Shown in pieces: positions 13,557-33,437 of a stretch of 33,450 nucleotides of DNA. Positions within the stretch are counted from its first letter, which is position 1, and each line of letters opens with the position of its first letter. The notes under the pieces are model-generated. The model was not told the origin of the DNA. It did not search any database and saw only the letters and a list, made by a program, of their open reading frames with translations. Source of the DNA: a virus; the IMG/VR virus record IMGVR_UViG_3300021963_000402, positions 1-33,450 of that record, one strand, 5' to 3'. A program made the translations under genes and the position numbers.

Positions 13557-15686
13557 ATGCCTTATTCTAATATCACATTAACAACCGATCCTAATTTAGC
13601 ATTTGAACAATATGATTTTATTCAAATAGTTCATGATGAGAATAATTATATCATAGGAAGAGTAGTTAGCTATGATAAGACTACAGGAGGATTAGTTTTT
13701 ACCCCAATAAAATTCGAAGGATCTGGAAGTTTTAGCACATGGCAAATATCATTAACAGGAGATCCAGGGGAATCAGGTACAAGTGGAATCGGAATAAATG
13801 GAACTTCAGGAACATCAGGATCTAATGCAAACATTGGAGAGATTTTTGAATCTGGAGGACCACATCAAATAGTTTTATTTACAGAAGATAGCCCGCATAT
13901 ATTAAAAGGAGATTCTAATTTTACATTTGATGGACGCACATTATCAATAGATTCTCAAGAATATAGCACAGGAGAAAATCCTGTTTATAGAATAGTTTAT
14001 CATGATGACGGAACTTCAGGAACTGCAGGTATAGTTGTTAGAGGGCCAGTTCCCGGACAGCCATATGATGGAATTATAGAAAATAGGGTTCCACACGACT
14101 ATCAACACCAATTTGTTGTAGGAGATAGCAATATAGCTCATATCGATTCTCAAGGATTACACATACAACAGGCTTTGATATCAGACGACGGGACGTATTT
14201 TCAATATTTAGAACAGGACAATTCCACTGATAAATTTTTGGTTTGGAATCAAGGTACTAGCGGGGGGTTTACAGGTAAAGTTGGGTGGACAACCTCCGGA
14301 GCTTCTGGATCTTCTGGATCTTCTGGATCTTCGGGAACATCAGGTGAAACTGGTACTTCTGGATCTTCCGGAACCTCTGGTGAATCCGGTACTTCAGGAA
14401 CATCTGGTGAAACTGGAGCTTCTGGTACTTCTGGTACTTCTGGTGAAACTGGTGCTTCTGGTGCTTCTGGTACTTCTGGAACATCTGGTGAAACTGGAGC
14501 TTCTGGTACTTCTGGTACTTCTGGTACTTCTGGTGAAACTGGTGCTTCTGGTACTTCTGGTACTTCTGGTGAAACTGGTGCTTCTGGTACTTCTGGTACT
14601 TCAGGACCTGGGTTTGTGTGGCAGGGGGCATGGCAAGAAATACCAGCAACTTATGTTGGTGGGCAAGATATTGTTTCATATGGAGGCGGATCATACATTA
14701 AAATAGGGGACGGTAATTCTGGAAGTGCTCCACCGGATGATCCTGTAAGATGGGGAATTATTTCCAATCCCGGTATCACTGGAGCTACTGGACCTGCTGG
14801 AACTGCTGGGGAATCCGGTACTTCTGGCACCTCTGGTCAAACAGGTACTTCGGGTACTTCAGGTGAATCTGGGGATGTTTTCAATTGGTTAGGAGGATGG
14901 ACAGAAAGTGGGGGTTTAAGTACTACCCCTTATGGGTTAAATGATGTTGTTTATTATCAAGGCAGAAGTTATATTGCAATAGCAAATACGATAACCATAG
15001 GATCGGTAGCTCCTGATATAAGCGGGGATTGGGATACTATGGCATCTGATGGATCATCAGGAACATCTGGTCAAAGTGGAACGTCGGGAACATCAGGTCA
15101 AAATGGTTCTTCTGGTACTTCTGGTCAAAACGGAACGTCTGGAACATCGGGTCAAAGTGGAACTTCAGGAACATCGGGAAGTTCTGGATCTTCTGGATCT
15201 ACAGGTACATCAGGATCTTCCGGAACGTCTGGAACTAGTGGATCATCAGGTACCTCTGGTACTTCTGGTACATCCGGAACAACAGGAACATCAGGAAGTT
15301 CTGGATCAACTGGATCTTCTGGATCAACGGGTACTTCAGGAACATCTTTTGCTAGTCCATATAGTGGAAATTTGCAAATAACCGGACAGGCGTGGATAAC
15401 TTCTTATACATCATCATCATCAACAATAAATTGGAATAATGGTAACGTTCAATTTCACACATTAACAAGTAGTACAACTTTCACATTCAGTAACGGAAAT
15501 GCTGGATCTACTTATATTTTAGTAGTCAAACAAGCAGCAGCAGGCGGATACACAATAACTTGGCCAGCATCAGTTGCTTGGACATCATCTCCGACAATGA
15601 CATCCACAGCAAATAAGTATGATGTGTATACTTTCGTATTTGTTGATAGCAAATATTTTGGATCATACCTACAAAACTTTACTTAA
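13557..15686 (+). CDS. Collagen-like tail fibre/adhesin 1
   Basis: A 709-residue fibre protein. The N-terminal 240 residues hold beta-rich attachment domains and two short GTSG patches. Long Gly-x-y collagen-like stretches ([13 protein letters not shown] type) follow at 14298-14609, 14772-14874 and 15051-15348, which should form trimeric shafts. Between them lie two similar small domains ([11 protein letters not shown]...[12 protein letters not shown]...PVRWGII and [10 protein letters not shown]...[12 protein letters not shown]...GDWDTM). Their W-G-x-W, Y-x-x-GD/ND-x-V, SYI and W pattern resembles carbohydrate-binding modules of the CBM5/12 type. The C-terminal ~115 residues form a beta domain ([12 protein letters not shown]...SYLQNFT) homologous to the end of the fibre at 17233. 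Role: binding host surface glycans. Domain assignments are from pattern recognition. Confidence 0.85.
14298..14609 (+). repeat. Collagen-like repeat tract in fibre 1
   Basis: Tandem 9-base units encoding Gly-Thr-Ser, Gly-Ala-Ser and Gly-Glu-Thr. Many units share the DNA form GGTACTTCTGGTACTTCTGG, so slippage or recombination within the tract is likely to change its length. Confidence 0.85.
15051..15348 (+). repeat. Second long collagen-like tract in fibre 1
   Basis: Gly-Thr-Ser, Gly-Gln-Ser, Gly-Gln-Asn and Gly-Ser-Ser triplets, about 99 residues with a Gly every third position. It leads straight into the C-terminal beta domain. Confidence 0.85.
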
Positions 15687-17232: not shown

Positions 17233-18462
17233 ATGGCTAATACTATGACATGGAAAGGAACATGGGTTGGAAATGGATCCAATCTAAGTGTTTTTCCTTA
17301 TATTAAAGACGATGCTGTTAAGCATGAAGGAATAGTCTATATTAGTACATCCTCTAATATTCCTATTGGATCTCCTAGTCCTGATTTAGATATGTCGAAT
17401 TGGGACATTATTGTGATAGACGGGAACTCTGGTACTTCTGGAGAATCAGGATCTTCTGGTTCTTCGGGATCTTCTGGTGAATCTGGATCTTCAGGTACTT
17501 CTGGCGAATCTGGATCTTCAGGAACTTCTGGAGAATCAGGATCTTCTGGTGAATCTGGATCTTCAGGAACTTCTGGAGAATCAGGATCTTCTGGTGAATC
17601 TGGATCTTCAGGAACTTCTGGAGAATCAGGATCTTCTGGTGAATCTGGATCTTCAGGTACTTCTGGCGAATCTGGATCTTCAGGAACTTCTGGAGAATCA
17701 GGATCTTCTGGTGAATCTGGATCTTCAGGAACTTCTGGCGAATCTGGATCTTCAGGAACTTCTGGTACTTCAGGAACAAGTTCTCTAGGCACGCCAGGAA
17801 CCTCTGGTACTTCTGGTCAAGATGGTACTTCAGGAACAAGTTCTCTAGGTACGCCAGGAACCTCGGGTACTTCTGGTCAAGATGGTACTTCAGGAACAAG
17901 TTCTCTAGGTACGCCAGGAACCTCGGGTACTTCTGGTCAAGATGGTACTTCAGGGCAATCGGGTACTTCAGGCAGTTCAGGATCAACAGGGTCCTCTGGA
18001 TCAACAGGATCTTCTGGATCTACTGGTACGTCTGGATCCTCTGGACAATCTGGTACTTCAGGCAGTTCGGGATCAACAGGATCTTCTGGATCAACAGGTA
18101 CCTCTGGATCGTCGGGAAGTAGCTGGTCCACACCATACTCTGGGCAAGTTGCAATAACACCTTATAATGGGGGTAATACAACATCTAGCACAACTATCAA
18201 TTTTGCTAACGGTAATATTCAAACATTCACGTTAAATGCAGCAACAACGTTTACGTTTTCGAACGCTCTTTCAGGCGGAACGTATGTGATTATAGTTAGA
18301 CAGAATGGTACTACCGCATATACTGTAACATTTACAGGAGCTAAATGGCCAACTGGGGTATCCCCAATAATGACACAAACCCTTAGTAGGTATGACATCT
18401 ATACTTTTGTAACACCTGATGCAAGTACCTTCTATGGAACTTATACACAAGATTACGCTTAA
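17233..18462 (+). CDS. Collagen-like tail fibre/adhesin 2
   Basis: A 409-residue fibre. Residues 1-60 form a single small domain (MTWKGTWVGNGSN...KHEGIVYISTSSNIP...MSNWDIIVID) of the same W-G-x-W/VYI/W type as the two inserted domains of fibre 1. Residues 64-296 are an almost pure collagen-like tract with Gly at every third position (GESGSSG, GTSGQDG, GSTGSSG). The last ~110 residues (STPYSGQVAITP...TFYGTYTQDYA) are homologous to the C-terminus of fibre 1, including TTFTFSN and YDIYTFV. Fibres 1 and 2 are therefore built from the same modules. Its own GATATATA box lies upstream and a LamG-like protein follows 6 bases downstream. Confidence 0.85.
   Translation: MANTMTWKGTWVGNGSNLSVFPYIKDDAVKHEGIVYISTSSNIPIGSPSPDLDMSNWDIIVIDGNSGTSGESGSSGSSGSSGESGSSGTSGESGSSGTSGESGSSGESGSSGTSGESGSSGESGSSGTSGESGSSGESGSSGTSGESGSSGTSGESGSSGESGSSGTSGESGSSGTSGTSGTSSLGTPGTSGTSGQDGTSGTSSLGTPGTSGTSGQDGTSGTSSLGTPGTSGTSGQDGTSGQSGTSGSSGSTGSSGSTGSSGSTGTSGSSGQSGTSGSSGSTGSSGSTGTSGSSGSSWSTPYSGQVAITPYNGGNTTSSTTINFANGNIQTFTLNAATTFTFSNALSGGTYVIIVRQNGTTAYTVTFTGAKWPTGVSPIMTQTLSRYDIYTFVTPDASTFYGTYTQDYA
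17521..17754 (+). repeat. 45-base tandem repeat in fibre 2
   Basis: Identical 45-base units encoding GTSGESGSSGESGSS start at 17521, 17566 and 17611. A 27-base short form (17656-17682), another full unit (17683-17727) and a short form (17728-17754) follow. Near-perfect DNA identity points to recent expansion. Confidence 0.85.
17764..17943 (+). repeat. 60-base tandem repeat (three copies) in fibre 2
   Basis: Three 60-base units (17764-17823, 17824-17883, 17884-17943) encode [20 protein letters not shown]. The second and third copies are identical; the first differs at two silent positions. The inserted SSLGTP breaks the Gly-x-y register at a regular interval. Confidence 0.9.
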
Positions 18463-19303: not shown

Positions 19304-21628
19304 ATGGAGAACAATAACTTTGACACTAATCTGGCTCAGATTAAAATGGAAAAAGCAAAGGCCGCTGCTAATATGTTAAATGAAAGTTGGGGAGGAGCAA
19401 GTAAAGCTTCTGCTGCTGGATCTTACGTAGATGGCGTAGCTAAAGAAATCGAGCAAGCTTCTAAGGAAGATAGCAAGGTTGCTAAACCTTCTTTTTCTCT
19501 AGGTGTTTTAGAGACTGCAATGGCACTTAGAAATACAGCTTTTGCAGAACTTTCCGAAGGTAAGATCTTAACTGACAAATATATTAATGCAGTATCAGTA
19601 AAAGGGATTTCTGAAGCTTTTCTATTGGAATCTATGATCCAAGAATTAGATAGTCTTTCTTGGGAAGTTAATGCTAAATCAGCCTTAGCAAACCTGAAGA
19701 AAACATACGAATCTAAAAGAAGAGAAATTGCGGTTGTAAAAGCAATGGAAGAAATCAATAGATCAGGAGGTAGAGATCTTTTCTCTTCTGTGGTTGAATC
19801 TATGAAAAATTGGGTTAATTCAGAAAATAAAGTTTCTGAAGCTCTAATCAAAGATTTGAAGCAATGGGCTTTCAATCCAATCGTAAGAAATTTATTTGAA
19901 AATCTAGCTGCAATCGAAGCTAAATCCCCTAATAAGTTTGAGGTTAAAGTTAACTCCAATAATTGCACAGTAAATTCAATTATAGCTCCAACATTAGTGT
20001 CTGAGAATTATTCTGTTTTTGTAACATCTAATAGATTTTTTAAATCACACAACGGAAGAATCTCTATCTTAGAAAGAGCAGAGGCTTCAAAACTTCCTAG
20101 CAAATTTTTAAGCGCTGTTATCAATCTTACAGATTCTAACGTGAAGGTAAACGAAAGTGGAGCAGATCTTTATATCGGTAAAAATAAAATTTCAGTTGTT
20201 TTAGAAAATGAAACAGAAACTAAATCAGTTTATTTAAATGGAAGAAGAATATCTCAAGATCAATTAGGATTTGTTCTTTCAATGGAATTAAGAAACACTT
20301 TCAACGGATCTGCTGATCTTGTTAAGAAAGCAGTTGGTGTTGTAGAAGCTGTTGATTATTTAGCAGAAGTTGATTTCGGTAAAAAAATAGTTTCTAACCT
20401 TTATGAAGGAGTAGAAGCAAACGTCTTCAAAATGGGTAATAAAGTTTATGTGCATAAAGTAAACCCAGCTATGAAGAAAAATGATCTTTTCGAGGGTAAC
20501 GGAAATCAAGCAGTTAATATTGTAAAAGAATTTTTAGGATTCGATCTTTCAGAATCTATGGCAGATGTTTTAGGCAAAGAAGATAGAATTTTAGCAATCA
20601 TGAGAAATGATAAAGATGCTATTAAGAAAAATTTAGAAATTGTAGAAAGCGAACTTTCAAAAATAAATACTGCAATCAAACAAAATCCTTTAATCCAAGA
20701 ATCATCTGAAATTAAGGAAGCACAAGCAATGCTTCAGAACGAGTCTAATACTCTTAAATCTAAATGGAATCAAATCACCGTTGAAATTGAAAGATTTGAA
20801 AAAGGACATAAAAAAGTATCTGTTAATGAAAATCAAGGATACGCTATCAACACTGATATTAAAGTAAAAAGAAGTGGTGAAAAGGGTAAAGTTGTTGGTG
20901 TTAATGGAAATTCTAAAACTTACACTGTAATGTTTGAAAACGGAAAAACCGGAGAATTCTTCTTCAGTGACGTAATGGATACAGACGATGAAATTTCTGA
21001 TGTTAATTTAGAAGTATCAAACGAAATTGATGCAATCGGAGAAACAAATGAAAAACAAGACATGAACCTTGCACAAGCACCTTCTAAAGGAGCTAAAGGA
21101 TCTTCAAAAAATGTTGACGATTTAAGCAAGCACAACCTAGCAACTCTACCTAAGGGAAATCCTGGTGCAGCAGCAAAAGATATCGATGATCTAAGCAAGC
21201 ACAATCTAGGATCTTTAAAATTAGGTGGCGGAAAAAAAGCTAAAGAAACAGTAGGTGTTTCTGGAGATATGAATCTAGCTAAACTTCCATTTAAGGGATC
21301 AAGAAAAGAATGGACAGGTCTTTTAAAATCTCTAGTTAAAGGACAAAATTTAGCAACAGCACCTGGTGGAAAGGCTAAGGATGGTGCTACATTTATTCAG
21401 AATTTAGATAATCATCAATTAGCTGAATCCCAAACTAACCAACACGTAGAAAAAGCACCTAAGGGAAAATCAGAAAAGCCTAAGAAATTCGTAGAAAATC
21501 TAGACGACGCTGAATTAGCAGAAGCACCAGGCAACCACAATAAGAATGGTAAAAAAGATCACGAGCCTCTAAACAGAGCAGGTCTTGCTAAAGCACCTAA
21601 AGCAAAATCCAAGACAAAAAAAAAGTAA
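19304..21628 (+). CDS. Large unknown protein with repeated NLAxAPKG motifs
   Basis: I cannot assign a family. The 774-residue product starts DTNLAQIKMEKAKAAANML. Residues 60-200 are helical; 205-400 look alpha/beta; 430-510 form a coiled coil (IEIERFEKGHKK at its end). Residues ~515-560 resemble a small KOW/Tudor-like beta barrel (DIKVKRSGEKGKVVGV, TYTVMFENGKTGEFFFSDVM). From residue ~586 a Lys-rich disordered tail carries at least seven copies of a short motif, L-A-x-A/L-P-x-G-K, usually after D/N-L-S/D-x-H-N (for example DLSKHNLATLPKGNPG). The same NLAQ begins the protein. Such a tail could bind DNA or be cut by a prohead protease. It heads the cluster with gp55-like, gp4 and portals, so a head/internal protein is likely. 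The gene ends in an A9-G run. Confidence 0.8.
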   Translation: MENNNFDTNLAQIKMEKAKAAANMLNESWGGASKASAAGSYVDGVAKEIEQASKEDSKVAKPSFSLGVLETAMALRNTAFAELSEGKILTDKYINAVSVKGISEAFLLESMIQELDSLSWEVNAKSALANLKKTYESKRREIAVVKAMEEINRSGGRDLFSSVVESMKNWVNSENKVSEALIKDLKQWAFNPIVRNLFENLAAIEAKSPNKFEVKVNSNNCTVNSIIAPTLVSENYSVFVTSNRFFKSHNGRISILERAEASKLPSKFLSAVINLTDSNVKVNESGADLYIGKNKISVVLENETETKSVYLNGRRISQDQLGFVLSMELRNTFNGSADLVKKAVGVVEAVDYLAEVDFGKKIVSNLYEGVEANVFKMGNKVYVHKVNPAMKKNDLFEGNGNQAVNIVKEFLGFDLSESMADVLGKEDRILAIMRNDKDAIKKNLEIVESELSKINTAIKQNPLIQESSEIKEAQAMLQNESNTLKSKWNQITVEIERFEKGHKKVSVNENQGYAINTDIKVKRSGEKGKVVGVNGNSKTYTVMFENGKTGEFFFSDVMDTDDEISDVNLEVSNEIDAIGETNEKQDMNLAQAPSKGAKGSSKNVDDLSKHNLATLPKGNPGAAAKDIDDLSKHNLGSLKLGGGKKAKETVGVSGDMNLAKLPFKGSRKEWTGLLKSLVKGQNLATAPGGKAKDGATFIQNLDNHQLAESQTNQHVEKAPKGKSEKPKKFVENLDDAELAEAPGNHNKNGKKDHEPLNRAGLAKAPKAKSKTKKK
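21059..21616 (+). repeat. Degenerate repeat of NLAxAPKG motifs
   Basis: In the encoded tail, the cores NLAQAPSKG, NLATLPKGN, NLGSLKLGG, NLAKLPFKG, NLATAPGGK, QLAES, EKAPKGK, ELAEAPGN and GLAKAPKAK follow at 12-30 residue intervals. The DNA is not identical between copies, so this is an old, selected peptide repeat rather than a recent expansion. Confidence 0.7.
21616..21625 (+). promoter_or_regulatory. Slippery A9-G run (candidate -1 frameshift or transcriptional slippage site)
   Basis: Nine As and a G directly before the stop of the 774-codon gene (aca aaa aaa aag taa). A AAA AAG is the canonical -1 heptamer, and runs of nine As are also known to cause RNA polymerase slippage (Thermus dnaX). 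A -1 move joins the upstream gene to the open frame 21625-21870, which has no ATG, GTG or TTG. Confidence 0.6.
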
Positions 21629-21870
21629 AAACAATACTAGAAAACAATAACGAAGAGTTCGTTCCTGATGAAACAGGTAACGAACTCTTACTTTTTAGTG
21701 AGGATCTGCACAAAACAATAGGAAAACTAAAAGAATTAGAAACAAGTAGCGAATCCAACAGTAAAATAGGTTTAAAGGTTATACAAGATTCTATTGATAG
21801 ACTTGCACAACTAGAGGAAGACATTCAAAAACAAATTGAAGCCCTCCAAAATAACTTCACCGAAAACTAA
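21625..21870 (+). CDS. 81-codon extension, reached by -1 shift from the 774-residue gene
   Basis: This frame has no ATG, GTG or TTG. In the same frame a stop (TAA 21598-21600) lies just upstream. Yet it looks coding: after VKTILENNNEEFVPDETGNE it continues with LLLFSEDLHKTIGKLKELE, DSIDRLAQLEEDIQKQIEA and ends QNNFTEN, a helical coiled-coil-like peptide. Its stop TAA overlaps the ATG of the gp55-like gene (TAATG), the same coupling as the following genes. The simplest reading is a C-terminal extension of the upstream protein, giving 855 residues, made by slippage on A9-G. Alternatives are a one-base assembly error in the A-run (then one 855-residue gene), or an unusual start such as ATA. A strong hairpin lies inside it. 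Function is unknown. Confidence 0.65.
   Translation, partial: VKTILENNNEEFVPDETGNELLLFSEDLHKTIGKLKELETSSESNSKIGLKVIQDSIDRLAQLEEDIQKQIEALQNNFTEN
21653..21689 (+). other. Strong RNA hairpin 27 bases after the slippery site
   Basis: AAGAGTTCGTT (21653-21663) pairs perfectly with AACGAACTCTT (21679-21689). The inner CCTG (21664-21667) pairs with CAGG (21674-21677) around a 6-base loop, with one bulged T at 21678. It totals 15 base pairs. ACTTTTTAG follows, so it could act as an attenuator or terminator; as a frameshift stimulator the 27-base spacer is longer than the usual 5-9. Confidence 0.75.
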
Positions 21871-22226
21871 TGGAATATGTAAAAAACAAAGATTTAAAAA
21901 GAGCTCTGCTTGAATCTAAAGACAAAGGGAGATTAACCCCTGAAACAGTTAAAATGTTTACCCTTATTGTTAATGGTCTTTCTAAGACAAAATCCTATAG
22001 AGATATAGAGGACAAAGAAGATTGCATAGCTTTCGGTTTAGAAGATTTGATTAAGTACTGGGACAGATTCGATCCAGCTAAGTCTGATAACCCATTTGCT
22101 TTTATTTCTCAGATTGCCAAAAATGGAATGCAAAAGGGATGGAAAAAAATTCACTCCACTAGATCCATTAAAACAATACCATTTTCTAGGATAACCAAAG
22201 AAGATAATCAAAATTATAATGTCTAA
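21870..22226 (+). CDS. Late-transcription sigma-like factor, gp55-like
   Basis: Likely redirects RNA polymerase to late promoters, as T4 gp55 does. The 118-residue product contains a sigma region 2-type block: DKEDCIAFGLEDLIKYWDRF (48-67) and RFDPAKSDNPFAFISQI (66-82), then NGMQKGWKKIH. The FDP-x-KS-x-NPFAFxxQI sequence closely follows the pattern of gp55 family members. There is no region 4 helix-turn-helix, as in T4 gp55; length is shorter than gp55 (about 185). The C-terminal end (SRITKEDNQNYNV) is short, and I see no clear clamp-binding tail. It overlaps the upstream frame (TAATG) and the gp4 gene (8 bases). The likely target is the GATATATA box found before virion genes. Confidence 0.75.
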   Translation: MEYVKNKDLKRALLESKDKGRLTPETVKMFTLIVNGLSKTKSYRDIEDKEDCIAFGLEDLIKYWDRFDPAKSDNPFAFISQIAKNGMQKGWKKIHSTRSIKTIPFSRITKEDNQNYNV

Positions 22227-22713: not shown

Positions 22714-23285
22714 TGGACTTCAAAAAGGAGATTGCGGAGGCCATACAAAATGCAGGATCTCCGGCTAAACTAACAGAGGAGAGCTTTTTACACTATAGGA
22801 ACAACTATGCAGTTCTCAAGCAATCTGAGAGCCTTAAATATCTAATTCCTGGAAAGATCTATACCTTTTTTTATGACTCCCAATTAAAAAACGAAAGGGA
22901 CTATGTCAACCACCGTCCTGTTCTTTTTTTGGATTCTAGAGAAATAAGTCTGACAAAAAGCAATTTAGTTGGGATTGATATGATACTTTTAACTCCCAGG
23001 GATCGTAAGAATTTTCTAATTAGACTGCATTCCATCTATGGCAAAATGATGGATCAAAACGATAAAAGGGAAAAGGGTTCACAACTTCCTTTAAGATTTG
23101 ATAGAGATCTTTTAGAAACTTTAATGGGCGGTATCAAGTATAATCATGCATACAATGGATACAAGTTGGAAAAAATTAAGGGTTTAAAAGAAATTCCTCG
23201 CGAAGAGTGGAAGTATCTTGTTTATCTAGATACCAAATCTTTGGAGGGGGCTGTATTAAACGATATATACAATAAATACGGATAA
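22713..23285 (+). CDS. Unknown conserved-looking phage protein in the head cluster
   Basis: Not firmly recognised. The 190-residue product has a helical start (MDFKKEIAEAIQNAG). A beta-rich core follows: LIPGKIYTFFYDSQL, NHRPVLFLDSREIS and LVGIDMILLTPRDRKNFLIR. A helical end contains ETLMGGIKYNHAYNGYKLEK and IPREEWKYLVYLDTKSLEGA. The PG-x-IYTFxYD ... P-x-LFL-D ... G-x-x-x-x-LLTPRDR pattern is one I associate with uncharacterised T4-like virion genes, but I cannot name it. In T4 gene order gp53 follows gp4, but this protein does not resemble gp53. It is coupled on both sides by one-base overlaps (TAATG), so it is expressed with gp4 and the portals. Confidence 0.7.
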   Translation: MDFKKEIAEAIQNAGSPAKLTEESFLHYRNNYAVLKQSESLKYLIPGKIYTFFYDSQLKNERDYVNHRPVLFLDSREISLTKSNLVGIDMILLTPRDRKNFLIRLHSIYGKMMDQNDKREKGSQLPLRFDRDLLETLMGGIKYNHAYNGYKLEKIKGLKEIPREEWKYLVYLDTKSLEGAVLNDIYNKYG

Positions 23286-24907
23286 TGGCTGGATTTTTAG
23301 GAGATAATGGATTGAATCCTTTTTTTAGTAACATTTGGAACAACCTAAGAAAAATAGGAACGTTCGGAATGAGTTATGGGGATATGGTAGTTAAAAATTC
23401 CCAGGCCATTGGTGTAACAGAAGCTCAGTTCATAGATAGGGGAAACGTAGATGAAAGTCTCCTTTATACTATTAGAAAAGCGGATACTAATGCTAAACAG
23501 TATGTTGCTTATTTTGATAAGGACTATCCTAATAAAAAGGTATACCTTCGTCAATTTGCTTTAAATCCCGAGATTGAATTTATTTTAGATACTGTTTGTG
23601 ATGAAGCTATTGTTTATGACGATAAAAACTTTTTCGCATATTTTTCTAATGTTGACATCAAGGGCATAGGAGATAAACTGGAAGATAAGATTCAGGAAAG
23701 ATATAAGCAGATTTACAATTTATTCGGATTTAACGAAGGTATTTCAGCATGGCATTTTTTCAGACAATTTCTTGTTGATGGTATTTTAGCATTTGAAATC
23801 GTTTTTGATCAAAGAGGTAAAGAAATTATTGGATTTAAAGAATTAGATCCAGTATCTCTCCTACCCTCGGTTGAAAAACAATTAGATGGTTCTTTTGTTG
23901 AATGTTGGATTCAATATCCCGACAATCCAGCAATGACCAGAAAATTATATGATTCACAAATCATTTATATTTCTTATGCAAAGGGAAATACCATAACAAG
24001 ATTAAGTTATGTGGAAAGATTGGTTAGATCGTTCAATCTATTGAGAATCATGGAACACACCAGAATTATCTGGAACGTGATGAATTCTTCATATAGAATG
24101 ACAATGACTGTTCCTATTGGTACTAAATCCCCCCAGAAAGCAAAGCAATCTTTAGCAGAATTGATGAGTATTTATAAAGAGGATATTAGATTAGATTCTG
24201 ACAGCGGAGAATTATTTGTTAATGGTAGACCGAATATTCAATTCTTTAAGAATTATTTGATGCCATCTACCCCTAACGGTACTCCTGATATTACTCCCCT
24301 TACAGGAGCAGGCGATGCTACTCCTTTTAGCGATTTAAAGGCACTATCATATTTTGCGGATAAATTAAAGCTTGATTCTAAGATACCTTATTCTAGATTT
24401 GATAGAGAGGACAGAGGAACACAAGGAACTTATAGCGGTAATGCTGAAGGTCTAGATCAGGAAGAAATAAGATTCTTTAAATTCATAACCAGATTAAGAT
24501 CTATCTTTCAAGACATTATGCTTAAGCCACTATGGATTCAATTTAGCTTAGACTATCCCAAATATCAAAAGGATTTCATGGTTAAGAGTCAATTTGGATT
24601 GGATTATGTGAAGGATAATTCATTTGCTGAAATTAGATATATGGAAATTCTTAATGCTAGAAAGGAGCAGGTAAGTAAAATCTCTGGTCTTATGGATGGA
24701 GAAGGAAATCCTTACTTCTCGCTAAGATATGTTCTAGATAAGTACCTGGGAATGACTGATGATGACAAGATAGCAAATGAAAATGCTAAGAGGGAAGCGG
24801 AAAAGAAAAAAGAGGAGGAAGAAAAGAAAAAAGAGGAAGAGACAGCAGCAGGGGGAGAAACCACAGCAGAAGGCGGGGAAGAAAAACAAGACGAGTTTAA
24901 ACTTTAG
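23285..24907 (+). CDS. Portal vertex protein, gp20-like, copy 1
   Basis: Forms the dodecameric ring through which DNA enters and leaves the head. The 540-residue product is close to T4 gp20 (524). Family features include an N-terminal FLRDLA-like segment, EIEFILDTVCDEAIVYDD (96-114), AWHFFRQFLVDGILAFEIVF, FKELDPVSLLPSVEK, LYDSQIIYISYAKGN and EHTRIIWNVMNSSYRMTMTV. GTKSPQKAKQSLAELMSIYK, YKEDIRLDSDSGELFVNGRP and DKLKLDSKIPYSRF follow. The last 35 residues are a Glu/Lys-rich disordered tail. A second full-length paralog begins 3 bases downstream, so the phage carries two portal genes in tandem. Confidence 0.9.
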   Translation: MAGFLGDNGLNPFFSNIWNNLRKIGTFGMSYGDMVVKNSQAIGVTEAQFIDRGNVDESLLYTIRKADTNAKQYVAYFDKDYPNKKVYLRQFALNPEIEFILDTVCDEAIVYDDKNFFAYFSNVDIKGIGDKLEDKIQERYKQIYNLFGFNEGISAWHFFRQFLVDGILAFEIVFDQRGKEIIGFKELDPVSLLPSVEKQLDGSFVECWIQYPDNPAMTRKLYDSQIIYISYAKGNTITRLSYVERLVRSFNLLRIMEHTRIIWNVMNSSYRMTMTVPIGTKSPQKAKQSLAELMSIYKEDIRLDSDSGELFVNGRPNIQFFKNYLMPSTPNGTPDITPLTGAGDATPFSDLKALSYFADKLKLDSKIPYSRFDREDRGTQGTYSGNAEGLDQEEIRFFKFITRLRSIFQDIMLKPLWIQFSLDYPKYQKDFMVKSQFGLDYVKDNSFAEIRYMEILNARKEQVSKISGLMDGEGNPYFSLRYVLDKYLGMTDDDKIANENAKREAEKKKEEEEKKKEEETAAGGETTAEGGEEKQDEFKL

Positions 24908-24910
24908 AAA

Positions 24911-26632
24911 ATGGCAGGATTTATAGATAATTTTTCGCAGAATAACCCTAACATGGGGAGAATACTTAGAACCGTAAGCAAAATAGGGTCTTTCGGAATG
25001 GAGTATAAAGATCTTGTTGTGAAAAATTCTCAAGCTATTGGTGTTTCAGAAGCAATGATGAGACAAAGACTAGCATTGGGTGATGCCGATGAGGATTTCA
25101 TCTATAGTTTAGCAGCACAGGACACCTCTAATAGAAAATACATTGCATACTTCGACAAGGAATATGCATTCAAAAGAGAATTCTTAAGAAGATTTGCTAT
25201 TAATGCTGAGATTGAATGGATTTTAGATATACTTGCAGACGAAGCTATTGTTTATGATGATAGAAATTTCTGTTGTGGACTATCTCTAGTTAATATGGAA
25301 CTATCAGATGAAATGGTAGAATCTCTTAGAGATAATTTTAGAAAGATCTACGTTTCTCATGGATTCAATAACGGAATTTCTGCTTGGCAGTATTTTAGAC
25401 AGTTTCTTATTGATGGATTTTTATCATTTGAAATAGTTTACTCCGATGATGGTAAACAAATTGTGGGATTTAAAGAATTAGATCCTATCTCTTTAACACC
25501 ATCGATTGAAAGAAATCAAGCGGGTCAAACTGTCCAAATTTGGTATCAATATTTTGGTGACAACGTAAAGGAAAGAAAATTATACGATTCACAGGTTCTT
25601 TATATTTCTTATGCTAAGGGCAATACCACAAGTAGAACTAGTTATTGTGAAAGATTGATTAGATCCCACAATCTTTTAAAGATTATGGAGCATACCAGAA
25701 TTATCTGGAACGTAATGAATGCTTCTTTCAGAATTAAGATGACAGTTCCTGTTGGAACCAGATCCCCTCAAAAAGCGAAAGAAACCCTGGGCGAATTGAT
25801 GAGTATGTATAAAGAGGATATCAAACTGAATACAGAATCAGGAGAGCTAAGCATCAACGGAAGACCTAATTTACAATTCTATAAAAACTATCTTTTCCCA
25901 GTTCAAGGAGGGGAATCACCGAAGGTAGAAACCCTTAATTCAGCAGGTCCTAATTTAAATATTATAGATGCTGTGGTTTATTTCTTCAATAAACTTAAAG
26001 CAGATTCTAAGATTCCTTTCAATCGATTTGCTGCAAGATCTGGTGGAACAGTGGGTACTTATAAGATTGGGGCAGAATCCGCAGAAAGGGACGAAATCAG
26101 ATACAATAAGTTTATCAATAGAATAAGATCGATCTATCAGGAAATTCTTCTAAAGCCGTTATGGATTCAAATGACTTTGGATTACCCAGAGCTAACTAAT
26201 GACACTATCTTTAGATCTCAATTAGGACTTAAATTTAATTCAGATAACCAATTTGGAGAGTCTAAAGAAATAGAACAGCTAATTAAGAAAATAGATTTCA
26301 TCGCGGGTCTTTCTGAGATTAAAGAGAAAAAAGGCGAAGAGGAAGTCCCTTATTTCAATCAAGATTTCTTAATCGATAAATTCCTAGGATTAACCAACGA
26401 AGATAGAAGGGTTAATGACATTTATAAGAAAAAAGACGAGGAAGAAAACGCAGCAGCAGCTCCTGCAGATACAGGAGCAGGCGGGGGATCAACCGCTGGA
26501 GGATCAGAACCAGCAGCAGAAGCCCCAGCAGGTGAACCAGCAGCAGAAGTCCCAGCAGAGACAGCAGCGGAACCAGCAGCAGAACCAGCAGCAGAAGCCC
26601 CAGCAGCGGGGGGAGAGGCAGAAGTGGTTTAA
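24911..26632 (+). CDS. Portal vertex protein, gp20-like, copy 2
   Basis: A second complete portal-family protein of 573 residues. It keeps the same blocks as copy 1, such as EWILDILADEAIVYDDRNFC, AWQYFRQFLIDGFLSFEIVY, FKELDPISLTPSIER, HTRIIWNVMNASFRIKMTVP, GTRSPQKAKETLGELMSMYK and KLKADSKIPFNRF, with an estimated half of residues in common over the core. It differs in its N-terminus, the loop around residues 345-360 and a long Ala/Pro/Glu-rich C-terminal tail (about residues 510-573, PAAEAP-like repeats). Neither copy is broken. Whether one ring mixes both or each serves a different role (for example scaffold initiation) cannot be told from sequence. Confidence 0.88.
   Translation: MAGFIDNFSQNNPNMGRILRTVSKIGSFGMEYKDLVVKNSQAIGVSEAMMRQRLALGDADEDFIYSLAAQDTSNRKYIAYFDKEYAFKREFLRRFAINAEIEWILDILADEAIVYDDRNFCCGLSLVNMELSDEMVESLRDNFRKIYVSHGFNNGISAWQYFRQFLIDGFLSFEIVYSDDGKQIVGFKELDPISLTPSIERNQAGQTVQIWYQYFGDNVKERKLYDSQVLYISYAKGNTTSRTSYCERLIRSHNLLKIMEHTRIIWNVMNASFRIKMTVPVGTRSPQKAKETLGELMSMYKEDIKLNTESGELSINGRPNLQFYKNYLFPVQGGESPKVETLNSAGPNLNIIDAVVYFFNKLKADSKIPFNRFAARSGGTVGTYKIGAESAERDEIRYNKFINRIRSIYQEILLKPLWIQMTLDYPELTNDTIFRSQLGLKFNSDNQFGESKEIEQLIKKIDFIAGLSEIKEKKGEEEVPYFNQDFLIDKFLGLTNEDRRVNDIYKKKDEEENAAAAPADTGAGGGSTAGGSEPAAEAPAGEPAAEVPAETAAEPAAEPAAEAPAAGGEAEVV
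26505..26625 (+). repeat. GCAGAA/CCAGCA low-complexity tract in portal 2
   Basis: Short 6-12 base repeats such as GAACCAGCAGCAGAA encode an Ala-Glu-Pro tail of portal copy 2. Such tracts change length readily. Confidence 0.65.
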
Positions 26633-26691: not shown

Positions 26692-28014
26692 ATGCAGCAG
26701 GAATTAGAAATTCTTTTGGAAATTGAAAGATCCACTGGGGAGGGATCACAGAAAAAAAAACAACAGCTTATCTCAGAAAATTTATCCCCTAGATTGGAGT
26801 ACATTCTCTCCATTTGTTTCGACCCGTTTGTCACAACCAAGCTACACAAATTAGAATATCAGGACAAAGATTGCAAAGAAAATTCTAAATTATATGAAGA
26901 ATTTTTCTCTCTTTGTGAGGAATTAAAAGCAGCACCTGCAATTAACGATCATTTAAGGGGCAAGGCTGAACGCTTGATTGAATCCACTGGTTATCACATA
27001 GAGCTTAAAAAAGTCTTAGCTAAGGTGCTTACAAAGCGAATGAACATAGGTATCGGTGCTAAACTTATCAATAAGGCAGTGGGGAAAGAGCTAATCCCCG
27101 ATCCAAGCCTTATGCTTGCAGAGGACGATCATAAAGTTATCGATAAATGGGAATCTATCGTTTGTGAAGAAAAATATGACGGTGTTAGAGTCATTTGTGC
27201 TATTGAAGGAAGAAAGGCTAAATTTTATACCAGGTCCTTCAATGAATTAGATGTTAGATTTCTTACTAAAATATCCGAGCAATTATTACATCTTAGTCGC
27301 GATCTGGGTGATATCTTTTTCGATGGTGAATTAACAGACAAAGACAGAAAAAGTGTTAGTGGTAAAGTAAATCAGATGCTAAAAGGATCTCCGAAGGAAT
27401 CTATCGGAGATGATCTTCTTTTTAATGTTTTTGATATTGATGGAATGGATTCAATTAAAACAGGAAAGGGGAAAGCACCGTATACTATAAGGAGAAAAAC
27501 ATTAGAAAGAGTTTTTGAAACTGGGGGAGAAAATCCCAATGTTATTTTAGCAAGAAAATGGGAAGCTAAAACACAAGACGAATTAATGCCTATTTATAAA
27601 GAAATCGTAGCTAATGGAGGCGAAGGCGTTATTATGAAAGATCCTTCCCACGTTTATGAATGTAAAAGATCTAAAAGCTGGATTAAATTCAAAGAGGTTG
27701 AGGATTGCGATTTGGTTGTTACTGGATGGTATCCAGGAGAGGGTAAAAGAGAAGGATTCATTGGCGGATTTATTTGTAAAGATTCTTCCGGAGAATATCA
27801 AGTTAAGGTTGGATCTGGATTTACAGAACAAGATTTAATTGAACTTTCTAAGAACCCTGATGATATAATAGGTAAAATTGTTGCCATTCAGTATAATGTT
27901 CCTATTGAGGATAAGAACGGCAACAAATCTCTTTTCCTACCTAGATTTATTGAGGTTAGAAATGATAAAACAGAACCAGAAAATTTAGTAACAAGATTTA
28001 ATAAAAATAAATGA
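26692..28014 (+). CDS. ATP-dependent DNA ligase, gp30-like
   Basis: Seals nicks in DNA during phage replication and recombination. The 440-residue product shows the nucleotidyltransferase motifs: motif I KYDGVR at 161-166 (Lys161 takes AMP), the following Arg181 region (YTRSFNELDV), motif III FFDGELTD, motif IV NGGEGVIMKDP, and motif V SWIKFKEVEDCDLVV. A C-terminal OB-fold segment (GSGFTEQDLIEL) comes next. The N-terminal helical domain (1-150, TTKLHKLEYQ, NIGIGAKLINKAVGKEL) resembles that of T4 gp30 (487 residues). It is the first gene after the TAnnTTTG promoter. Its stop overlaps the clamp loader ATG (ATGA). Confidence 0.92.
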   Translation: MQQELEILLEIERSTGEGSQKKKQQLISENLSPRLEYILSICFDPFVTTKLHKLEYQDKDCKENSKLYEEFFSLCEELKAAPAINDHLRGKAERLIESTGYHIELKKVLAKVLTKRMNIGIGAKLINKAVGKELIPDPSLMLAEDDHKVIDKWESIVCEEKYDGVRVICAIEGRKAKFYTRSFNELDVRFLTKISEQLLHLSRDLGDIFFDGELTDKDRKSVSGKVNQMLKGSPKESIGDDLLFNVFDIDGMDSIKTGKGKAPYTIRRKTLERVFETGGENPNVILARKWEAKTQDELMPIYKEIVANGGEGVIMKDPSHVYECKRSKSWIKFKEVEDCDLVVTGWYPGEGKREGFIGGFICKDSSGEYQVKVGSGFTEQDLIELSKNPDDIIGKIVAIQYNVPIEDKNGNKSLFLPRFIEVRNDKTEPENLVTRFNKNK

Positions 28015-31013: not shown

Positions 31014-33437
31014 ATGAAAGAACTAACAGATTTAAACATACAGCAATTAGGAACAAGCTATGATTCCCTAAAGATTAATCAAAATTTTCAGCAGATTCAA
31101 GACGCAATCGATCTGCTACAAACAACTTTTGGGATAACCATAGAACTACCAGGATTTGATGCTCAAAATGCTAAATTTACAGTTGATGTATTAAGAGCAA
31201 ATTCTATAAAACTTCCTGCTACTGGTGCAGTTAAAATCGGATTAGACGGTAATGATGGTGGTATTACTGGATCTTCCTTCAATGTTATTAATAATGCTTA
31301 CGTTGGTGGTGATTTAGACATTTATAACAAAAATGGAACTGGAGGTAGAGTAAGATTTAGAGTTGATAAAAACACCGAGATTACCAAACCCCCAATTCCT
31401 GGTCAAGTAAGATTTACTGGTAATGCTTTCCAGGGATATGTTTATCAAAACGAGGTTAATTCCTCATTTTCTTTTGAAATAAACTCAGGATCGACCGGAG
31501 GAACGATCGAAATTTTCATCAACGGGAATTCTCTCACAACCACAACCTGGCAGGGTGCAGCTTATTTAACAGGTCAAAAAATCGTTGCTGATATTATCGC
31601 TATATCAAATGGCACGGTAAAAGCATTCTCTGATGCCACCACAGTAACGATAGAATCAGTTACTGGATATGCATCATATTATAATAATGCACCCGTAGTT
31701 TTAACTACTAATAATATTAGTGTTACACCATCAACAGGAATAATGTCAGGAGGTATAGACGGAACACAAGGATGGGTGAACTTCACTGGTTATATTGGAG
31801 CAACAGGAGGAACTGGTTCCTCTGGACCAACAGGGGCAACAGGGGCAACCGGTCCATCAGGAGGAAGTTCAGGATCAGCAGGATCTTCTGGATCTTCAGG
31901 TTCTTCTGGATCTACTGGATCCTCTGGAAGCTCTGGTTTATCTGGGACATCAGGAAGCTCTGGTCAAAATGGAACTTCAGGAACTGCGGGGACCTCTGGT
32001 GAATCTGGATCTGTTGGGCCAAGAGGATCTACCGGACCAGCAGGGACTTCAGGAACTTCTGGACAAACTGGAACATCTGGTTCTTCAGGATCATCAGGAT
32101 CTGCAGGTAGATCAGGAACCTCAGGAACTTCGGGATCTACAGGATCTTCAGGATCCTCTGGCCAAACAGGTACTTCTGGTTCTTCCGGAACTAGTAGCAC
32201 ATCAGGAACATCTGGTTCTTCAGGATCCACCGGTTCTTCAGGATCCACAGGATCTTCAGGAAGCTCTGGAGAATCCGGATCCTCAGGACTAAGCGGTGAC
32301 AGATATGCTACAAATGCTTCAGTTTATGATGCAACTCACACCACTGCTAATGGATTGGATTTATCCGCCTTAGTAGTAGATACTTCGGTTGTTTATTTAA
32401 ATACAGCTTTACTTGATCTTTCCTATACAGTAGCACAAAGTGTAATTGTTGCAGTAGATTCTAATAACTATTTTGCTGGAATAGTCCAATCTGCTATCGC
32501 AAGTAGTGGATACTATGATATTTTGGTTAAGGACGTTGAGGGCACTACAAATTATGGATCTTCTCAGGTTTGGTCTATGAATCTTGACGGTGCAGTTGGA
32601 CCAGCTGGTCCTAACGGAACATCGGGATCTGGAGGAACCTCCGGATCTTCAGGTACTTCCGGTACATCGGGATCATCAGGAAGATCTGGATCTTCCGGTT
32701 CTTCCGGATCAACAGGAACTTCTGGCTCTTCTGGTACTTCTGGTTCTTCTGGTACAGCCGGAATGGACGGATCATCAGGATCTTCCGGTAGTACAGGATC
32801 ATCTGGTAGCACTGGATCTTCCGGTAGCACAGGATCTTCTGGATCTTCTGGAGAATCTGGAACATCTGGATCTTCTGGTAGCACTGGATCTTCCGGTAGT
32901 ACAGGATCATCTGGATCTTCTGGAGTATCTGGATCATCAGGAACATCAGGAGTTGGTGGTGCAAATGGTACATCAACTCAAGTTGCGTTTTTTACCGGAT
33001 CAACAACTCTTGGATCAGATTCCGGACTTTATTGGGACAACAGCAATAAAAGATTAGGTATTGGAGCAGGTACAAACCCAGCCTATCCATTAGAGGTAGA
33101 TGGTAACGTTACAGGTATTTCGATCTATGCTAGCCATGACGTTGCAGCATATTCTGATATTTCAGTTAAAGATGAAATTGAAGAAATACCAAATGCAATC
33201 GAGAAGATAAAACAAATTAGGGGAGTAACCTTTGTAAGAAAAGATTCGGAATCTAAAGAAAGAAGAGCAGGTGTTATTGCTCAGGAGGTAGAAAAAGTTA
33301 TTCCTGAAGTTATAAGTAAAAAAGAGGACGGAACATTGATGGTAGCTTACGGAAACCTTACATCTTTGTTAATCCAAGCGATTAAGGAGCAACAAATTGA
33401 AATAGATAATTTAAAAAAGATCATAGCGGAGAAATAA
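31014..33437 (+). CDS. Long collagen-like tail fibre with S74 self-cleaving chaperone
   Basis: An 807-residue fibre. The N-terminal 70 residues (MKELTDLNIQQLGTSYDSL; FQQIQDAIDLLQTT) look like a coiled-coil attachment domain. Beta domains run to about residue 255, then a collagen-like shaft (31793-32295; ATGPSGGSSGSAG). A small globular insert follows (DRYATNASVYDATH to VWSMNLDG), then a second collagen-like shaft (32590-32958). The last 95 residues are an intramolecular chaperone of the peptidase S74 type: SDISVKDEIEEI (S714, D715, K719 in the expected Ser-Asp/Lys arrangement), RAGVIAQEVEKVIPEVI, and a closing helix (LIQAIKEQQIEIDNLKKII). It should trimerise the fibre and then cut itself off. 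It is the only fibre here with this domain. Confidence 0.9.
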   Translation: MKELTDLNIQQLGTSYDSLKINQNFQQIQDAIDLLQTTFGITIELPGFDAQNAKFTVDVLRANSIKLPATGAVKIGLDGNDGGITGSSFNVINNAYVGGDLDIYNKNGTGGRVRFRVDKNTEITKPPIPGQVRFTGNAFQGYVYQNEVNSSFSFEINSGSTGGTIEIFINGNSLTTTTWQGAAYLTGQKIVADIIAISNGTVKAFSDATTVTIESVTGYASYYNNAPVVLTTNNISVTPSTGIMSGGIDGTQGWVNFTGYIGATGGTGSSGPTGATGATGPSGGSSGSAGSSGSSGSSGSTGSSGSSGLSGTSGSSGQNGTSGTAGTSGESGSVGPRGSTGPAGTSGTSGQTGTSGSSGSSGSAGRSGTSGTSGSTGSSGSSGQTGTSGSSGTSSTSGTSGSSGSTGSSGSTGSSGSSGESGSSGLSGDRYATNASVYDATHTTANGLDLSALVVDTSVVYLNTALLDLSYTVAQSVIVAVDSNNYFAGIVQSAIASSGYYDILVKDVEGTTNYGSSQVWSMNLDGAVGPAGPNGTSGSGGTSGSSGTSGTSGSSGRSGSSGSSGSTGTSGSSGTSGSSGTAGMDGSSGSSGSTGSSGSTGSSGSTGSSGSSGESGTSGSSGSTGSSGSTGSSGSSGVSGSSGTSGVGGANGTSTQVAFFTGSTTLGSDSGLYWDNSNKRLGIGAGTNPAYPLEVDGNVTGISIYASHDVAAYSDISVKDEIEEIPNAIEKIKQIRGVTFVRKDSESKERRAGVIAQEVEKVIPEVISKKEDGTLMVAYGNLTSLLIQAIKEQQIEIDNLKKIIAEK
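31793..32295 (+). repeat. Collagen-like shaft tract 1 of the S74 fibre
   Basis: Gly-x-y triplets ([26 protein letters not shown]) over about 165 residues. Many units are 9-base near-repeats of GGATCTTCTGG type. Confidence 0.8.
32590..32958 (+). repeat. Collagen-like shaft tract 2 of the S74 fibre
   Basis: Gly-x-y triplets of about 120 residues, including repeated [19 protein letters not shown] units; the DNA is related to the tracts in fibres 1 and 2. Confidence 0.8.

Follow-up and report, generated by a model that had tools for sequence, protein, structure and literature searches.

Several described systems extend a protein by slippage on a run of adenines. In Thermus thermophilus dnaX, transcriptional slippage on an A9 run near the end of the gene gives two C-terminal forms of the product (PMC1088944), and in the two-ORF dnaX genes of the Chlorobi and others, which carry runs of A7 to A10, the long form requires a slip (PMC3711429). 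IS elements with a conserved A9 run use the same slip sequence to fuse two ORFs, there encoding transposases (PMC1088944). A_AAA_AAG is likewise a site of ribosomal frameshifting and ORF fusion in IS elements and dnaX, where close stimulators are the normal arrangement (PMC4066793). Baranov et al. 2005 (PMC1088944) give a nine-A run whose length is conserved among homologues as the criterion for purposeful transcriptional slippage, which such a run very likely serves. In Shigella spa13 and mxiE, transcriptional slippage extends the C-terminus and affects how strongly the following gene is expressed, and at spa13/spa32 the end of the extension overlaps the next gene start (review PMC5009743). 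In the tail assembly chaperone of the tailed phage lambda, gpG/gpGT, a -1 frame change produces a minor, C-terminally extended form (PMC5009743).

The locus described here is similar to the dnaX genes in that a long A-run near the end of a gene would give two C-terminal forms, the longer of which, as in the two-ORF dnaX genes, would require a slip. In contrast to dnaX, the protein is unrelated, the run is followed at once by the 0-frame stop, slippage is predicted from sequence, and the extension holds a terminator-like hairpin and adjoins a late sigma gene. As at spa13/spa32, the extension ends within the start codon of the gene that follows (here gp55); the Shigella genes, however, belong to bacterial type III secretion, and the review passage on them describes no terminator-like hairpin in their extensions. 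Compared with lambda gpG/gpGT, the gene, its location and the motif are all different: this site lies beside gp55 and head genes and probably acts at the level of transcription. Among the open-access papers searched, we found no account of a tailed phage in which programmed transcriptional slippage is conserved; the only related mention is of a Campylobacter phage whose frameshifted methyltransferase might be restored in this way (PMC2853527).

Organization of the locus

The window (the whole stretch analysed, 33,450 nucleotides of IMG/VR record IMGVR_UViG_3300021963_000402) is a T4-like phage contig. Its main features at this locus are listed in Table 1.

Table 1. Positions of the features surrounding the slip site in the window
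Feature	Position	Strand	Description
0-frame gene	19304-21628	+	774 residues; C-terminal end KSKTKKK
A9 slip run	21616-21624	+	With G21625 forms an A_AAA_AAG that is in phase with the 0 frame and immediately followed by the stop
0-frame stop TAA	21626-21628	+	Immediately 3' of the slip site; TAA in 48 and TAG in 2 of 50 sequences
-1-frame extension	21625-21870	+	81 sense codons and a stop, no start codon; supported by dN/dS, alignment and model
RNA hairpin	21653-21689	+	11-bp stem; z = -4; inside the extension frame and followed by U-rich ACTTTTTAG
gp55-like late sigma factor gene	21870-22226	+	Match to phrog_234 (late sigma transcription factor), E 3.7e-16

The 0-frame gene ends in ACA AAA AAA AAG TAA (21614-21628). 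The -1 frame that continues past this end is closed upstream by a TAA at 21598, contains no ATG, GTG or TTG in either the window or four close relatives, and terminates in a TAA (21868-21870) that shares bases with the ATG of the gp55-like gene (TAATG). The initial annotation had pointed to the A9-G run, the ATG-less frame of 81 codons, the upstream stop and the TAATG overlap; all of its coordinates and counts hold, as does the length it gave for the fused product (774 + 81 = 855 residues).

Downstream of the slip site lie genes for the gp55-like late sigma factor, head closure, a DNA end protector and the portal. Two tandem, related portal-like genes are present (23285-24907 and 24911-26632), the first of which matches the PHROG portal family (E 3e-63). 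Three large genes elsewhere in the window (13557-15686, 17233-18462 and 31014-33437) contain long, collagen-like GTSGTSG/GSSGSSG repeats and probably encode fibres. Based on the relatedness of the portal to those of Lak phages and Sphingomonas phage PAU, the host is probably a member of the Bacteroidota; a search of bacterial genomes for relatives returned none.

The model of the 774-residue protein is ordered over its N-terminal two thirds (helices, beta structure and a long coiled-coil), with a KOW/Tudor-like domain at approximately residues 510-565, followed by a repetitive tail (residues 566-774) modelled with low confidence. No convincing family match was obtained in PHROGs, Pfam or PDB sequences, and a fold search of the model against the PDB returned generic coiled-coil and Tudor/KOW folds and nothing else. 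Fold matches in BFVD are uncharacterised myovirus proteins, including one from Tenacibaculum phage PTm1. The initial annotation took it for a probable virion protein that would be made in two forms at a set ratio; the sole pointer to function is the position beside the gp55, head-closure, DNA-end-protector and portal genes, which suggests a structural role. In two distant relatives (L044 and L045), the KOW-like segment is also present in the gene preceding gp55, which reads in a single frame through to a helical C-terminus. It is possible that this arrangement represents the ancestral in-frame form; as proof of an in-frame fusion it was set aside, the match between this tail and the extension being weak (hhalign E 0.002-0.05). 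In Chryseobacterium phage MA9V-1, the gene before the gp55-like gene has no detectable relation to the 774-residue gene.

Conservation and joint loss of the A-run and the second frame

Five near copies of the locus were recovered in a first protein scan, every one with both A9 and the frame. A larger set of 50 distinct -1-frame sequences from T4-like phage contigs, window included, was then built from gp55 anchoring, an extension profile and an upstream-protein profile. The run before the stop is nine A's long in 49 of these and ten in the remaining one; a length of eight occurs in none of the relatives. The single A10 homologue results from an AAG to AAA change, so the 0 and -1 frames are still not joined. 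In each of the 50 sequences the -1 frame continues uninterrupted for 79-86 codons, and in most members its stop codon shares bases with the gp55 ATG or lies right next to it. The comparison of homologues proposed in the initial annotation thus agrees with its reading of the run and frame, and the arrangement that would have spoken against it, an ordinary ATG-started second gene, has no conserved counterpart among the frame-bearing relatives. One nuance is that many relatives do carry an ATG, GTG or TTG in the -1 frame, at no conserved position.

The heptamer, in 0-frame phase, is A_AAA_AAG in 47 sequences, A_AAA_AAC in two and A_AAA_AAA in one, the run having survived two separate AAG to AAC changes and one AAG to AAA change. 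Conservation extends 5' of the heptamer: the codon preceding the three lysines (codon -4) is ACA, TCA, GCA or AGA, with A, T or G as its first base and A at the wobble position in 50/50, and one or two codons before it all four wobble bases are seen. At conserved lysine columns elsewhere in the same gene, AAA and AAG are mixed (19/21). A9 is the sole A/T run of at least nine in most loci checked, such runs being otherwise rare, and its conservation spans 0-frame dS values greater than 1 in several pairs. A second A9 run in the window (26752-26760) falls at approximately codons 21-23 of a DNA-ligase-like ORF (26692-28014), and a few relatives have other long A-runs upstream (A11 in L087:111; A9 in L064:214 and L070:90).

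Purifying selection acts on the -1 frame at the protein level, as judged from pairwise dN/dS values of approximately 0.09-0.37 (18 pairs, including pairs with an upstream-gene dS greater than 1). An alignment of 26 extension sequences contains 12 invariant and 10 near-invariant residues, with the core KELETSS..N.KIG..(V/T)I..S...L..L. The initial annotation had described a helical peptide, and AlphaFold likewise predicts a two-helix hairpin (pLDDT 77) with a disordered start and helices at residues 14-44 and 50-76. Searches of PHROGs, Pfam and PDB sequences with the extension produced no convincing family, a fold search with its model gave generic helical matches alone, and none of the isolate phage records searched contained it. 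A domain of 80 residues would escape standard annotation in all of these genomes.

The dependence of the frame on the run was assessed in 48 usable distinct loci that were gathered via the upstream protein alone and had a readable gene end, the extension being no selection criterion. Run and frame are both present in 44 of these loci and both absent in four (L107, L158, L128 and L169); neither occurs without the other. A further locus, L126, was left out of the count: its tblastn match overran the stop, and the same contig, as L065, has both A9 and the frame. The tree pairs L169 with a slip-site phage as its sister (support 100/99) and places L128 and L107 plus L158 elsewhere. If the site is ancestral, this topology would imply about three joint losses, with firm placement for the L169 loss only. 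A degraded trace of the extension is still present in L169 (8.7 bits, compared with a best score of 3.1 among 1,000 shuffles). Possible remnants in L128 (E 0.02) and L107/L158 are short matches only, for which no claim is made. Since run and frame are present or lost together, the frame is very probably reached via the A-run and not by independent initiation.

Separately, the stretch separating the upstream gene from gp55 in L107, L158 and L128 retains the motif TTGGAAACTT where the LETS codons would lie, in a frame that is no longer coding. This motif may act at the DNA level, for example as a gp55 promoter.

The hairpin within the extension

An addition to the initial annotation is the 11-bp hairpin inside the extension frame. 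A hairpin was found in all 35 members examined; the stem sequences differ between the two main groups, and within each group covariation, including compensatory changes, exceeds that of slid-partner controls. Stems in slip-site phages are 10-18 bp long with U-rich 3' tails. The conserved stem starts at a variable distance of 17-29 nt 3' of the slip site; in the window, a weaker A-U stem extension reaches to approximately 10 nt from it. The structures that stimulate ribosomal frameshifting usually begin 5-9 nt 3' of the heptamer, and a spacing of 17-29 nt would probably be too far for a classical stimulator.

Relatives without the frame have a hairpin and U-tract of classic terminator form, with no coding role. 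Because these elements are kept there, the simplest reading is that the hairpin is probably an intrinsic terminator that the extension frame has come to run across, and termination is predicted at this position. A consensus terminator scan, which has a loop limit of 8, did not list the window hairpin.

Level of slippage and its consequences

Recoding by slippage at the A9 run, whether by RNA polymerase or by the ribosome, is very strongly favoured by these comparisons. Three explanations in which no slippage takes place are far less likely. If the extension were a separate gene with a non-ATG start (ATA, ATT, ATC or CTG) after the upstream stop, ribosomes could arrive by translational coupling, and most relatives do have an isoleucine codon among the first 12 codons of the frame. 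This codon is, however, ATA in the window clade and ATT elsewhere, at differing positions, and L124, L133 and L156 lack ATT, ATC, ATA and CTG in this interval. The first ATG, GTG or TTG is absent or scattered from codon 2 to codon 60, and the conservation of A9 and its joint loss with the frame are left unexplained, making a separate gene very unlikely. The conserved feature could instead be the hairpin or terminator, with the frame as its by-product, given that hairpin and U-tract occur both with and without the frame. Protein conservation nevertheless continues for approximately 50 codons beyond the hairpin (LETSS...KIG...) with dN/dS below 0.4, and A9 conservation is again unexplained; we consider this more improbable still. 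Homopolymers are prone to sequencing and assembly errors, and an error in the run could have split one continuous gene; alternatively, the frame could be a decaying pseudogene tail. The same run, however, recurs in approximately 50 distinct sequences from many metagenomes, the A10 variant likewise fails to bring the genes into one frame, and dN/dS is well below 1, so that the likelihood of an artefact or pseudogene is close to nil.

The initial annotation had likened the arrangement to programmed frameshifting or dnaX-like transcriptional slippage. This comparison is well supported, run and frame being kept or lost together, and slippage by RNA polymerase is somewhat preferred. We favour transcription, as the probable level, because the run is kept at nine A's in all but one sequence, the invariant A reaches beyond the heptamer, and replacement of the last base by C or A is tolerated. 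A length-conserved A/T run of about 8-9 bases or more at an ORF junction is also what homopolymer-type transcriptional slippage calls for, and the run here agrees with the criterion of Baranov et al. 2005. The argument from run length is not decisive, since with the extra conserved A a further ribosomal heptamer, A_AAA_AAA, arises that overlaps the first. Programmed -1 ribosomal frameshifting alone, by tandem tRNA-Lys slippage on A_AAA_AAG with the ribosome slowed by the stop or the hairpin, is a less probable though still serious candidate. In its favour, A_AAA_AAG lies in the correct phase in 47 of the 50 sequences and ranks among the high-frequency motifs in E. coli, for A_AAA_AAC there is proof from one IS family (both PMC4066793), and a conserved hairpin lies downstream. 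Against ribosomal slippage alone stand the near-constant length of the run, the invariant wobble A of codon -4, the distance of the hairpin from the site, and the retention of the hairpin as a terminator in frame-less relatives, which makes a stimulator role unnecessary.

The comparisons show the conserved architecture, the selection on the frame, its dependence on the A-run and the hairpin; the occurrence, level and rate of slippage, and the role of the tail, are inferred. The majority of transcripts would keep nine A's and yield the 774-residue protein, translation ending at the immediate TAA. On some transcripts, RNA polymerase would slip on the A-run, adding one A or omitting two, and ribosomes on the slipped message would read through ...TKKK-VKTILEN... 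into the 81-codon frame, producing the 855-residue protein with its predicted C-terminal helical hairpin. Ribosomal -1 slippage on A_AAA_AAG may supplement or replace this step. Ribosomes in the second frame would finish exactly at the gp55 start codon, and slippage would thereby probably feed translation of the late sigma factor; by analogy with spa13 and mxiE (PMC5009743), it may alter gp55 expression. A more speculative, and on balance unlikely, extension of this mechanism is a slippage-gated switch, in which the slip rate on A9 sets both the ratio of the protein forms and late sigma output from the upstream operon. If such a switch exists, only ribosomes on slipped messages would translate into the terminator hairpin; close behind RNA polymerase, they could block termination, and those crossing the hairpin would be delivered to the gp55 start.

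The comparative case for programmed slippage at this locus is strong, and it concerns a gene of tailed DNA phages other than the tail chaperone; the joint losses of site and frame serve as natural controls. Since the extension overlaps both the terminator-like hairpin and the start of the late-sigma gene, a possible connection of slippage to late transcription is open to testing.
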